A DNA stretch of 34,796 nucleotides from Planctomycetaceae bacterium (GTDB lineage Bacteria > Planctomycetota > Planctomycetia > Pirellulales > Thermoguttaceae), in assembly GCA_021372555.1 (NCBI GenBank), contig JAJFUI010000288.1, positions 1 to 34,796 of the forward strand. The letters run 5' to 3'. The notes under the pieces were generated by a model. The model made no database searches and was not told where the DNA came from. It worked only from the letters and a program-made list of their open reading frames with translations. Shown piece after piece: positions 11,998 through 19,123 of this stretch (positions are counted from its first letter, which is position 1; each line of letters begins with the position of its first letter). The translations under genes and the position numbers were made by a program.

Positions 11998-13887
11998 TTA
12001 CCGTCCGAACATTTTGGAAAAGAAGCCCTTCTTCGGTTTTTCTTCTTCGTCGTCCGTGTTGTCGTCCGCCTTCTCGCTCGCGCCGTGATTCGCCCCAGGT
12101 TTATCGAACAATTCGGGCGATGGACTGGCCGGCGTGGCGGTCTTCTTAGGCGAATTGTCGGCCGACCGACGCCCCGCTGCTTCCGACGTGTCGGAATCAT
12201 CGGCGGCCATGCGGTCATAGGATCGCCCAGCTTCGGGCAGGGCGTCCACCTCGAGCCGCGACGCCACCGCGCCAAGCTTCATCGCTTCTTCGAGGGCTTG
12301 GACCACATCGGGGTACGTTCCGCCGAGTTCGACAATCGCGCGAATCACGTCGTCAAGGCGAGTGGAAACCGTCCGTTTTTGATCGCCGTCCGCGACGGAG
12401 TACTTGCTCACGCAGATATCACCTTCCGGCGAGCTCTTGAGCATGATCTCGTTGCCGGCGTTGATGAGCACGGGCACTAGCAGCCGCTGATCGGCGCCAA
12501 ACAGAACGATCTCGGCCAGCCGATTGCGAGTCAGGTGGATCATTGGCGGGCCGGCCACGTCCAGCACGTGATAGTGGAACTGGTCGCCGAGGATCTCGCC
12601 CTTGACCAAGGGGTCTTTGTCGTTCATCGCCCAGAGAGCGCGGAACGCACCGTAGCGGGTCTCGGCGCTCGGCATCGAAAGCAGATCGCGGAGTTGGCTA
12701 TAGGCGGCAAAATCCTGCATGGCGCTCAAGGCCGTCAACGCAAAGACGCGGAAGGCGGGCTGCTCGCGGGCGATTTCGCCGAGCGGCTCCGCAGCCTCGC
12801 GACGATCGAGATAAGCGAGGGCCTCGGCGGCATAGAATCGCACTTCCGGGTCTTTCGATGCGACGCCCTTCAACAAGGTGTCCATGCCCTCGGTGCCAAG
12901 GGCTTCGAGTTGCACCGCGGCCTCGGCCGAATCGTTAGGATCGAGCAACCGCCGTTCAAGCGAGGCAATCCGGCCGGTGCGCTCCGTGGCCGACTCGGAC
13001 AGCGGAATCGACCGAACGACCTGCATGTAGCGGGCGATGTTGTCTTTGTAACGTGGATGAAGCTGCAACTCGACGAGCTGGTCATCCACAGCCTTGGCCA
13101 TGCCGATTTTCACACCGTTCTTCATGGTGTGGAACCGTTTGTTCACGGCGTTGGCCACCTTCGAGTTGTACATGGCGTGCTGGAGCCGCGACTTCACGGC
13201 GGCGGGATCCGGCTTCGAATCGTCGAGGGCGTTACGGTGCCCCTTGGTGAGCACGAGGCCCAGGGGCCGGTTCTTTAGACAGACACCACCGCCAGGAATG
13301 CGGCCACGGCAGAGCGCGAGGCGGTCCGTCTTGTCGGCCGTTGGATCGACCAATACGGGACCCTTGGCCAGCGCTAGGAGATTGCCGCCGAGCACACGGC
13401 TTTGGTGCGATTCATTTTCCACGACCCGCATTTCTTTCAGGCGAGTCTCGAGCAGGAATCCGCCACGCAGGCTCTTGGTGTCACTCTGCGAGGGAACGCG
13501 AAGCTCGATGTCGAAGCGGTCGCCTTTTTGGATGCCCGGCCGCAGGTAGCCCTGCATCATGACGAGCGAGACGTCGCCCGAGGCTAAAACGGTGTCGGGG
13601 TTGGCAATGCCGCGGATCTGCATTTCTTCGACCAACGCAGCCCTTTGCGGCGAGGGGCTTGGGTCAGAGCCCGTGCCGCGAAGGCCGGTGATCAGCCCAA
13701 TGGCCTCGACGCGAACCGGCCAGACGCCGGTTGGCACCGCAATGTCGCCAATGAGCCGCGTTTGGGGCTCGTCGGAGTTCGATTCGTCCGGGCTTTGGGA
13801 CCGCATCGTCCCGTTAAACCACGAACATCCGCCCATGCTCAGTGCGGCGGAACCGCAGGCCAACAGGAGAAAATGCCGACGTTTCAT
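11998..13887 (-). CDS. Lipoprotein with FlgI-like (P-ring) region and HEAT-like repeats
   Basis: A 629-residue predicted lipoprotein: MKRRHFLLLACGSAAL, then lipobox SMGG-Cys21. Residues about 44-310 resemble the flagellar P-ring protein FlgI (RLIGDIA...VRVEAIGLITGLRGTGSDPSPS, VMMQGYLRPGIQKGDRFDIELRVPS, GGNLLALAKGPVLV). Residues about 330-480 contain HEAT-like helical repeats (RIASLERRLLD, EAAVQLEALGTEG, EVRFYAAEALAYLDRREAAEPL, FRVFALTALSAM). The tail is acidic and Lys-rich. The ATG at 13887 directly precedes the signal sequence; the 28 extra residues upstream would block it. No flagellar gene is nearby, so a ring-type envelope protein recruited for another role is possible (inference). The gene is followed 88 bases later by smc. 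Confidence 0.75.
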   Translation of the reverse strand: MKRRHFLLLACGSAALSMGGCSWFNGTMRSQSPDESNSDEPQTRLIGDIAVPTGVWPVRVEAIGLITGLRGTGSDPSPSPQRAALVEEMQIRGIANPDTVLASGDVSLVMMQGYLRPGIQKGDRFDIELRVPSQSDTKSLRGGFLLETRLKEMRVVENESHQSRVLGGNLLALAKGPVLVDPTADKTDRLALCRGRIPGGGVCLKNRPLGLVLTKGHRNALDDSKPDPAAVKSRLQHAMYNSKVANAVNKRFHTMKNGVKIGMAKAVDDQLVELQLHPRYKDNIARYMQVVRSIPLSESATERTGRIASLERRLLDPNDSAEAAVQLEALGTEGMDTLLKGVASKDPEVRFYAAEALAYLDRREAAEPLGEIAREQPAFRVFALTALSAMQDFAAYSQLRDLLSMPSAETRYGAFRALWAMNDKDPLVKGEILGDQFHYHVLDVAGPPMIHLTRNRLAEIVLFGADQRLLVPVLINAGNEIMLKSSPEGDICVSKYSVADGDQKRTVSTRLDDVIRAIVELGGTYPDVVQALEEAMKLGAVASRLEVDALPEAGRSYDRMAADDSDTSEAAGRRSADNSPKKTATPASPSPELFDKPGANHGASEKADDNTDDEEEKPKKGFFSKMFGR

Positions 13888-14082
13888 GCTTCCCTGCACT
13901 CCATCTCGGACGAGAACGCGAATCGGAGAAAAGACCGGGCGGCAGGCGCGCAGCCGACGGCCCGGGATCACCGCGGTCGCGAAGAATAGCGAGTCAGGCG
14001 GCGGGAATCAAGCCGAGGATTGAGGTCAGCGCGAAAAGATGGCGAGAATGCGAAAGCCAGGATGACCGGTTCCTCCGCTCGC

Positions 14083-14756: not shown

Positions 14757-15761
14757 TTACCACCGCAGGTCGCCGCGGGGGTTCTCGGCATAACGCTGAT
14801 CGATGTCGCGGATTGTCTGTCGATCCGCTTCGCTAAGCTGCTTAGGCAAGACGATTTGGATCTCGGCCATCAGGTCGCCGGCGCTGCCGTTCTTCGGCGC
14901 GACGCCATGTCCCTTGATGCGCAGCTTCGTCCCGCTGGAGGAGCCCGGCGGAACACGGACGGCAACGGTGCCGCGCGGCGTCGGCACATCCACCTTAGCG
15001 CCGGCCGCAGCCTCGCCAAGTGTTACGGGCACGCGGACGTAAAGCTGATTGCCGCGACGGTGGAAAAATGGATGTGGCGCGACGCGGATGGTTAGGATAA
15101 TATCTCCCGGCGTTCCGCGACGGGCGGGCTGGCCGTGACCACGGATGCGGATCTTCTTGCCGTCCTCGATGCCCGGCGGAATCTTGACGGCCAGCGTTTC
15201 GGTTTTGCCCTGGGGGCGCTGCACAGCGATTTGGACTTCGCCGCCCGTGATGGAGGTGGTGAACGGGATTTGCAGTTCCTGGGTGACGTCTGCGCCGTGG
15301 TTCGGGGCCTGCTGAGCGCCCGATGGTCTATTGCGGTACTTCCCCGCGGCGCGGCGGAACTGGCCGAAGAGATCGCCGAGCCCGCCGGGCATCTCTTGGC
15401 CATAGCGCTCGCCAAGGAACTGACTCAGGTCGATGTCTTCGACGCCGAAACCCCCAGGACCAGCTCCACCGCTCGGTGCGCCGCCGGGCGCCCACGACCA
15501 AGTGTAGCCGCCTTGGGGCTGAGGACCGCCGGGGCCGGCCGTCTCGAAGGAACTGCCGTAGCGGTCGTACATCTCCCGCTTCTCGGGATTATTCAAGACG
15601 TCGAACGCGGCCTGAACCTTCTGGAATTTCTTCTTGGCCGTCTTGTCGCCCGGGTTCATGTCCGGGTGGTGTTTCCGCGCGAGTTCCCGATAGGCCTTTT
15701 GAATTTCGGCCGGAGATGCGTTTTTTGGCACACCCAGAATGCCGTAATAGTCTTCCGCCAT
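14757..15761 (-). CDS. DnaJ-class co-chaperone, CbpA/type II
   Basis: A 334-residue J-domain protein. The J domain (4-70) has the HPD motif at 32-34. A Gly/Pro/Phe-rich linker (about 75-150) follows. Two C-terminal beta-barrel domains (about 165-320) contain GEVQIAVQRPQGKTETLAVKIPPGIEDGKKIRIRG-like strands (residues split over the segment 185-220). There is no CxxCxGxG zinc finger, so it is the CbpA type rather than DnaJ. It stimulates DnaK ATPase and hands over unfolded clients. The ATG at 15761 matches MAEDYYGILGV; an upstream start at 15797 would add 12 residues. A TACAAT -10 box ends 6 bases before this ATG. Confidence 0.92.
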   Translation of the reverse strand: MAEDYYGILGVPKNASPAEIQKAYRELARKHHPDMNPGDKTAKKKFQKVQAAFDVLNNPEKREMYDRYGSSFETAGPGGPQPQGGYTWSWAPGGAPSGGAGPGGFGVEDIDLSQFLGERYGQEMPGGLGDLFGQFRRAAGKYRNRPSGAQQAPNHGADVTQELQIPFTTSITGGEVQIAVQRPQGKTETLAVKIPPGIEDGKKIRIRGHGQPARRGTPGDIILTIRVAPHPFFHRRGNQLYVRVPVTLGEAAAGAKVDVPTPRGTVAVRVPPGSSSGTKLRIKGHGVAPKNGSAGDLMAEIQIVLPKQLSEADRQTIRDIDQRYAENPRGDLRW

Positions 15762-15767
15762 GCCCCA

Positions 15768-15773
15768 ATTGTA
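15768..15773 (-). promoter_or_regulatory. Candidate -10 box (TACAAT) directly before cbpA, possible leaderless start
   Basis: On the minus strand TACAAT ends 6 bases before the ATG at 15761, so the expected start site is the A of the ATG. A weak TTGCTG lies 18 bases upstream. No Shine-Dalgarno sequence is present. Confidence 0.45.
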
Positions 15774-15823
15774 AGGACCAGATGGGGCGTTCAGCAAGAC
15801 GGCCCGACAGCGGGGCTTCAGAC

Positions 15824-17931: not shown

Positions 17932-18058
17932 TGTTCGGCGATGCCTAGCAGCCCAAAGCCAGACGCACCTCCATTGGGTTGTCTGCTAGCGCGGTCGCCT
18001 TGCCTGGCTCACGAGAAAGAACCGCGACCTTCCGCAATAAGCTGCGGCCAACCTCGTT

Positions 18059-18064
18059 TACAAT
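18059..18064 (+). promoter_or_regulatory. Candidate -10 box (TACAAT) directly before the ECF sigma gene
   Basis: TACAAT ends 7 bases before the ATG at 18072. There is no Shine-Dalgarno sequence at normal distance and no clear -35 box. Same geometry as at mug and cbpA. Confidence 0.4.
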
Positions 18065-18071
18065 CGTAGGC

Positions 18072-18602
18072 ATGGCCGAGAAAAGCTGCAACTCTGACGA
18101 GGAGCTGTTTGCAACCTGGGTCCGTGAACACGGCCGGGCGGTGCGTGGATTCTTGCTGGCGATGGTGCGACGGCCCGACGTGGCCGACGAGCTAAGTCAG
18201 GAAGTCTTCTGCCGCGCCTGGCAGGCCCGGCAAAGGTATCGCGAACAGGGCAACGCTCGGGCGTACCTGCTACGAATCGCCGACCGGCTGGTGTGCGACC
18301 ACGGTCGGCGACGCAAGCCGTATGTGCATTTGAACGACGACGGCTGGCAGATTCATGAGCCAGTCGACCCCGCAAGGGGACCGTCGAGTGCGGCCATCGT
18401 GGCCGAGCATGTCGAACTACTTTCGGCGGCGTTGGACCGGCTTTCACCGTCGCAGCGCCGGGTGCTGCTGTTGAGATATTACGGACAGTTGACTTTCGCC
18501 GAGATCGCCACGGAGACGGGTATCCCGTTGAACACCACCCTGAGTCATTGCCGGCGAGGTCTGGAGGCCTTGCGCGCACTGCTGGTGGAGGAAAGTCCAT
18601 GA
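18072..18602 (+). CDS. ECF-type RNA polymerase sigma factor
   Basis: A 176-residue sigma-70-family factor with only regions 2 and 4. Region 2 (about 17-82) has the polymerase-binding and -10-melting segment DVADELSQEVFCRAWQARQRY and RAYLLRIADRLVCDHGRRRKP. Region 4 (about 114-172) has LDRLSPSQRRVLLLRYYGQLTFAEIATETGIPLNTTLSHCRRGLEALR (split), with the HTH for the -35 element. The ATG at 18072 is the family start; a TTG at 17979 would add 31 residues. The stop overlaps the start of the anti-sigma-like gene by 4 bases (ATGA), which points to coupled synthesis of factor and antagonist. The target regulon is unknown. Confidence 0.92.
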   Translation: MAEKSCNSDEELFATWVREHGRAVRGFLLAMVRRPDVADELSQEVFCRAWQARQRYREQGNARAYLLRIADRLVCDHGRRRKPYVHLNDDGWQIHEPVDPARGPSSAAIVAEHVELLSAALDRLSPSQRRVLLLRYYGQLTFAEIATETGIPLNTTLSHCRRGLEALRALLVEESP

Positions 18603-19123
18603 GCAAACAATGCAACGAACTGCAACGGATGCTGGAACTGGCGACTGCCGAACAAGACACCGCACAGGTTGATCTCGATCCGGAGACAGCGTCATTTCGC
18701 GATGCGTGGTTGGTCTTTGGCCAACTGTTGGAATCGAGTCAGTCGACGTTCGAGCCCGCAGCGGACGTGTGGGTTAGGCCTCGAACCAAGCCGCGAGGTC
18801 GTTGGTTGTTGTCAGCCGCGGCTGCATTGGCGGCCTCGCTGCTGATCGCGGCCGTCTGGCTTTCCGCGTTCCAGTCGAAGCAGATAGCCAAGGTCCAGCA
18901 ATCAACGCCTCACGTGGTGCAGGTTGCCAACCTGCCAGTGACGTCGTCCGGGATCGTGACAACCGGCTCCAAATGGGACGACTCCTGGGACGACCAAGTC
19001 GCGCAGGTAGGACAAAGCGTGCTGTATGCTCACCAAGACCTGTACGCCAGTTCTGAACCGGCGCGGGCCGTCCAATACGGAATCGAGCAGGTGCGGCAAG
19101 ACGTCGACGATAGCAAATTGTAG
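18599..19123 (+). CDS. Putative membrane-anchored anti-sigma factor
   Basis: A 174-residue single-pass membrane protein. The cytoplasmic N-part (1-65) has no zinc-binding HxxxCxxC motif. One hydrophobic segment (about 69-90, LLSAAAALAASLLIAAVWLSA) is followed by an extracytoplasmic C-part rich in W/D (SKWDDSWDDQVAQVGQ near 130-145). The assignment rests on a strict 4-base overlap with the ECF sigma gene and on topology, not on a named domain. A GGAGGAAAG ribosome-binding site lies inside the end of the sigma gene. The coding sequence contains a perfect palindrome (18919-18935). The C-part may sense envelope conditions (inference). Confidence 0.7.
   Translation: MSKQCNELQRMLELATAEQDTAQVDLDPETASFRDAWLVFGQLLESSQSTFEPAADVWVRPRTKPRGRWLLSAAAALAASLLIAAVWLSAFQSKQIAKVQQSTPHVVQVANLPVTSSGIVTTGSKWDDSWDDQVAQVGQSVLYAHQDLYASSEPARAVQYGIEQVRQDVDDSKL
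18919..18935. repeat. 17-base palindrome inside the anti-sigma gene
   Basis: GCAGGTTG-C-CAACCTGC is an 8-bp perfect inverted repeat around one base. The 14-base core GGTTGCCAACCTGC recurs exactly at 29627-29640, inside another gene. Confidence 0.6.

Follow-up and report, generated by a model that had tools for sequence, protein, structure and literature searches.

Start-codon-proximal −10-like hexamers in a planctomycete genome and a candidate ECF-type promoter of a sigma factor gene

Three genes with a −10-like hexamer next to the start codon

The window, i.e. the whole 34,796-nt stretch of DNA analysed here, derives from a 4.05-Mb planctomycete genome of 361 contigs and contains three genes whose start codons are closely preceded by a −10-like hexamer. 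On the forward strand, TAGAAT (541–546) lies 7 nt before the ATG at 554 of a mug-type DNA glycosylase gene (554–1114; 186 aa from this ATG; Pfam uracil/mismatch glycosylase), and TACAAT (18,059–18,064) lies 7 nt before the ATG at 18,072 of an ECF sigma factor gene (18,072–18,602; 176 aa). On the reverse strand, a second TACAAT (15,768–15,773) is separated by 6 nt from the ATG at 15,761 of a gene for a CbpA/DnaJ-type co-chaperone (14,757–15,761; 334 aa; Pfam DnaJ/DnaJ_C). A preliminary description of this DNA had taken the three hexamers for −10 boxes of probable leaderless mRNAs devoid of a Shine-Dalgarno sequence. Positions and gaps proved exact on re-reading, and AGGA, GGAG or GAGG occurs within the 25 nt upstream of none of the three genes. 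As a mark of leaderless transcripts, the use to which the preliminary description had put it, this absence does not discriminate: among 385 called genes of the same genome, one of these 4-mers is found at −18 to −4 in 128 (31–43 in shifted windows), so most genes of this organism do without a clear Shine-Dalgarno signal. Elsewhere in the window, a reverse-strand gene (11,998–13,971) encodes a protein with matches to both FlgI (flagellar P-ring) and HEAT repeats, an odd combination.

The cbpA upstream region has the layout of a sigma-70-type promoter, with TTGCTG (15,792–15,797, reverse strand) as the −35 box at a distance of 18 nt from TACAAT, which in turn lies 6 nt before the ATG. The gene product shares up to 74% identity with its closest relatives, which come from metagenome-assembled genomes of Pirellulales or Planctomycetota and place the host in or near Pirellulales. 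Of 80 cbpA loci, 23 were left out (incomplete 5′ end, alignment start other than ATG, or non-planctomycete origin), leaving 57 related loci to be compared with that of the window. TANAAT occurs within 120 nt upstream in 46 of these 58 loci, and its distance to the ATG falls into two groups: a gap of 5–9 nt is seen in nine loci and one of 10–19 nt in none, with 39 further sites at 20–110 nt (23 of these at 45–64 nt). The closeness of the box to the ATG is thus lineage-specific. Since a promoter-like box is usual and its distance to the gene variable, a leaderless cbpA would be a lineage-level state.

The mug gene is the weakest of the three cases. Its product matches the NCBIfam G/U mismatch-specific glycosylase above cut-off. 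Its start is placed differently by different readings of the frame, with a further in-frame ATG at 482 (210 aa) and a TTG at 632 as the start called by the gene finder. The search for a −35 box at a spacing of 16–18 nt from TAGAAT returned no TTG, the best match being TCGGCA (4 of 6 positions) at a spacing of 19 nt. Among the genomes compared, one contains a clear mug relative (G036; 56% identity) and another a weak match (G035). The upstream region of the G036 gene lacks TANNNT at a gap of 6–7 nt, and mug was set aside as a candidate for a conserved leaderless gene.

A conserved element upstream of the ECF sigma factor gene

The ECF sigma factor consists of sigma2 and sigma4 domains only (Sigma70_r2, PF04542; Sigma70_r4, PF08281/PF04545), and among the best 25 of its 81 NCBIfam matches only the general sigma70-ECF superfamily passes the cut-off, with no ECF group number emerging from them. 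Its stop codon overlaps, in an ATGA, the start of a second gene (18,599–19,123, forward strand) for a 174-aa protein with one hydrophobic segment. The 4-nt overlap recurs in 19 of 34 ECF loci, and the window's second protein is matched at E < 0.001 in 17 of the 33 other loci; its family follows many of the orthologs, for example at L104–L107, L254–L258, L263 and L270. An alignment of 17 sequences revealed a conserved N-terminal LExATA...LRExW region and a C-terminal W-x-D motif. Searches against Pfam and PDB profiles assigned the protein to no known family and gave no anti-sigma domain, only weak matches to other things, and NCBIfam returned no match. From its position and topology, the second protein is probably an anti-sigma factor.

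A homology search at E ≤ 1e-25 yielded 42 places with an ortholog of the sigma factor, of which 34, own gene included, had a locus that could be examined; the eight without a locus were left out. Upstream of 33 of the 34 we found GCAAT[A/T]-N13-16-CGTT, with a spacer of 14–16 nt in 31 loci and of 13 nt in two (L109 and L272); the element is absent at L275. Since the GCAAT and CGTT columns of the resulting motif are fixed by the search pattern, it is this locus count that constitutes the finding. Outside the fixed columns, the element is preceded by T in 26 of 31 orthologs and by C before that T in 22, and the spacer carries little information except at its first base. Downstream of CGTT, positions +1 to +6 are likewise poor in information, followed by T at +9 (20/31), A at +10 (19/31) and G at +11 (20/31). 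In 25 of the 33 orthologs, 11–17 nt separate the end of CGTT from the ATG; L110, L254 and L274 lack an in-frame ATG within 29 nt. The window carries, in this order, GCAATA (18,034–18,039), CGTT (18,055–18,058), TACAAT (18,059–18,064), TAG (18,067–18,069) and ATG (18,072), such that the hexamer highlighted by the preliminary description directly abuts CGTT and falls into the stretch of low information.

The element appears tied to this ortholog group. It was found in none of the 250-nt regions upstream of 19 further ECF genes, taken from the genomes of the ortholog search with starts extrapolated from the alignment. Within the own genome, the upstream stretches searched contain it at two of 381 genes, one being the ECF gene itself; at the other (L136:2930), GCAATT-N14-CGTT lies ~155 nt upstream and was taken as a chance match. 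Across 40 genomes, TGCAATAA-N14-CGTT occurred at 20 places versus 14 for a backward control, and five of the 20 precede the ECF ortholog itself (in G002, G011, G016, G017 and G022). Similarly, GCAATA-N15-16-CGTT occurred at 12 places in the own genome versus nine for the backward control, and the ECF gene was the only one of the 12 with an ATG-started, positively scoring frame 8–20 nt past the element; at L329 and L336, such frames begin 47 and 40 nt after it. Neither the 40-genome nor the own-genome search thus gave a clear regulon beyond the gene's own operon. Because the element goes with one group of orthologs and these searches brought up no clear regulon outside the operon, self-activation of the operon is the simplest reading.

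Together, these data suggest that the sigma factor gene is transcribed from a conserved (T)GCAAT[A/T]-N13-16-CGTT promoter, with GCAATA as the proposed −35 and CGTT as the proposed −10 box. This promoter is probably of the ECF type and autoregulated, in that it would most likely be recognised by the encoded sigma factor itself. Transcription would probably start at the A or G of the conserved TAG, leaving a leader of 3–4 nt here and of roughly 1–7 nt in most relatives. In the preliminary description, TACAAT had served as the −10 box of the ECF gene. This assignment has given way to the conserved element, as only six of 33 orthologs keep a TANNNT immediately behind CGTT, and TACAAT is probably the wrong box for this gene.

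We consider it unlikely that TACAAT is nevertheless a true housekeeping −10 box of the ECF gene, either alone or overlapping the ECF-type promoter. Its 7-nt gap fits exactly, and in 12 of 33 orthologs some TANNNT lies 5–8 nt before the ATG, which looks like an excess over chance. Against this stand the scarce retention of the hexamer behind CGTT, a best −35 match of 2 of 6 positions at spacings of 16–19 nt, and the low information content of columns +1 to +6 compared with GCAAT and CGTT, which are present at nearly all loci. The ECF-type promoter remains our preferred assignment for this gene.

A further idea concerns translation. With the proposed self-recognised promoter kept ~11–17 nt from the ATG in most orthologs throughout the order, the sigma message would be near leaderless, and the ratio of sigma to putative anti-sigma factor could be set by how readily ribosomes take up leaderless mRNA; if true, the sigma factor would be switched at the level of translation. 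A Shine-Dalgarno 4-mer is found at the sigma start in three of 31 orthologs. The second gene is preceded by GGAG-type sequences in 14 of 29 loci, a count that may partly reflect coding signal because these sequences fall within the final part of the sigma coding region. We regard this scenario as improbable.

A minor class of genes with the hexamer near the start codon

The preliminary description had proposed a genome-wide scan for such hexamers. In the own genome, both TANNNT and TANAAT at gaps of 6–7 nt exceeded chance in a sample of genes, as did TANAAT in the whole genome. A sample of 61 sequences (621,520 bases) gave 423 called genes, 385 of them usable; start calls are approximate, as our home-made gene finder works without ribosome-site or promoter input. 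Upstream of the 385 genes, TANAAT at a gap of 6–7 nt was seen six times versus 0.56 expected (Poisson p = 2.7e-5) and TANNNT 13 times versus 4.94 expected (p = 0.0018). In the whole genome, TANAAT-N6-7-ATG numbered 61 versus 24 for TANAAT-N3-4-ATG, a control spacing with the same relation to the reading frame (binomial p = 3.7e-5). Matches to TACAAT-N3-12-ATG, counted for gaps 3 to 12 in turn, numbered 6, 6, 0, 9, 14, 6, 5, 6, 7 and 9; 56 of these 68 TACAAT places, including all those at gap 6–8, were retrieved for inspection, and two of them (C166 and C225) dropped out as string matches to another locus.

The excess is widespread in the order. Gap 6–7 exceeded gap 3–4 in 110 of 117 genomes, with six showing the opposite and one being even; the excess reached p < 0.01 in 62 of the 117, and the summed TANAAT counts were 9571 versus 6338. 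Genomes of one family can differ: the signal stood out among the 385 genes sampled from the own genome (G000) and was absent from a 250-gene sample of G024 (TANAAT, 0 versus 0.34 expected; TANNNT, 4 versus 3.5), for which the genome-wide counts gave a small excess (70 versus 52). For G017, of the same family, TANAAT-N-ATG numbered 598 at gap 6–7 and 708 at gap 3–4, i.e. no excess at gap 6–7; its match counts lie far above those of other genomes, and it is probably strongly AT-rich.

Inspection of the 61 places in the own genome found that 36 of the ATGs begin a coding frame; by eye, three of the 36 appear to lie within longer genes, and the other 33 sites were counted as gene starts. A TTG at the −35 position (spacing 16–19 nt) accompanies ten of the 33 gene-start sites, compared to 1.9 in shuffled upstream regions, and two of the other 28 sites, compared to 1.4; the remaining 23 gene-start sites lack it. 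As the −35 TTG is enriched at the gene-start sites and not at the other 28, real sigma-70-type promoters are supported.

Chance occurrence of TA-rich hexamers near ATGs, with ordinary leaders transcribed from promoters further upstream, is in our view quite unlikely as a general explanation. In its favour, the window contains many TANNNT sites (112 on one strand and 95 on the other), the G024 gene sample showed no excess, most of the cbpA relatives that carry TANAAT have it 20–110 nt upstream, and mug has no TTG at −35. Against chance stand the genome-wide excess and the confinement of −35 TTG enrichment to gene-start sites. For mug alone, the chance explanation may well hold.

A minor leaderless or near-leaderless transcript class in this genome is thus likely, judged from the sequence signature. 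In such a class, a sigma-70-type promoter would be placed so that transcription starts at, or within 1–2 nt of, the ATG, and ribosomes would then initiate on an mRNA with little or no leader. Counted strictly by TANAAT, the class would comprise ~33 genes, with cbpA as a member and mug possibly another, and it may arise through changes in the distance between promoter and start codon, as cbpA suggests.

The preliminary description had further proposed that the class is stress-linked, which the functions of its 33 gene-start members do not bear out. Pfam searches at E ≤ 0.001 gave one or more family matches for 26 of the 30 members outside the window, in some cases below the curated cut-off, and none for the other four. 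The matches comprise RecG, glutamine amidotransferase, PLD-like, alpha/beta hydrolase, PP2C phosphatase, UPF0004/Radical SAM (a member that we take to be a MiaB-type protein), transposase, histidine kinase, glycosyltransferase families 2 and 9, sulfatase, class-V aminotransferase, calcineurin-like phosphoesterase, PdxJ, metallo-beta-lactamase fold, M50 peptidase, HD domain, DUF4416, SRAP, DsbD, amine oxidase, archease and TPR, along with weaker matches. A stress-linked leaderless regulon is very improbable: although an ECF sigma factor, a chaperone and a repair glycosylase share one window, and RecG and SRAP bring the members for which a stress or repair label is possible to five of 33, the other 28 are very mixed in function or lack an assignment, the ECF gene is probably served by a different promoter type, and no element common to the three window genes was seen beyond the −10-like hexamer.

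Taken together, we consider it likely that the window combines a mixed near-leaderless sigma-70 class with an ECF gene that has its own ECF-type promoter. Two separate causes would give the ECF gene on the one hand, and cbpA and mug on the other, the same appearance of a −10 box near the ATG. Of the original proposal of leaderless mRNAs, what stands is a non-random minor class with −35 TTG; what is not supported is the inclusion of the ECF gene by way of TACAAT, as its promoter is probably of another type. Two testable results come out of the analysis, namely the sequence signature of a small leaderless class and the predicted promoter of an uncharacterised ECF group. It also exposes a trap for TANNNT scans, in that a −10-like hexamer by an ATG can sit inside the promoter of another sigma factor.

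Comparison with known systems

That leaderless genes can carry TANNNT close to their start is already known (PMC3160421, PMC12340547). TA-led leaderless genes, with TANNNT ~10–12 bp before the start and interpreted as a −10 box, were described as widespread but not dominant and as exceeding their frequency in shuffled sequences (Zheng et al. 2011, PMC3160421); the terms Planctomycet, Rhodopirellula and Pirellula are absent from the main text of that study. The class described here resembles them as a minor class with a TANNNT −10 near the start above chance, its TANNNT core lying ~12 bp before the start. It adds to them the enrichment of TTG at −35, with ~33 strict cases in 4.05 Mb. In Deinococcus-Thermus, TANNNT situated a few bp ahead of the ORF was shown experimentally to drive leaderless mRNA, more strongly so with a −35 box located 17 bp upstream (PMC12340547). 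There, the arrangement is common and mostly lacks a −35 box, whereas in the own genome it is rare and enriched in −35 TTG. For one planctomycete, a study of nucleotide bias at non-Shine-Dalgarno genes suggested leaderless and/or S1-dependent initiation (PMC5397173). Our literature searches (leaderless together with Planctomycetes or Gemmata; start-site maps) found no planctomycete transcript-start map.

The ECF locus, for its part, can be set beside autoregulated ECF operons. According to PMC8103513, ~55% of ECF sigma factors are autoregulated, the ECF −10 is CGT with AAC as the usual −35, and the later definition of the group asks for sigma2 and sigma4 domains only. An older definition adds CGT and AAC as −10 and −35 of the target promoter, a cognate anti-sigma factor from the same transcript and positive autoregulation. 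In our partial survey of the literature (PMC8103513, PMC7406223), no ECF promoter motif like GCAAT[A/T]/CGTT was encountered. The window shares with the autoregulated operons of PMC8103513 the sigma2–sigma4 architecture, a −10 of CGT(T) (if the conserved element is indeed the target promoter) and a co-encoded downstream protein with a hydrophobic segment. It differs from them in its −35, which reads (T)GCAAT[A/T] instead of AAC, in a second protein that lacks a known anti-sigma domain, and in the short distance of 11–17 nt that most orthologs keep between CGTT and the ATG.
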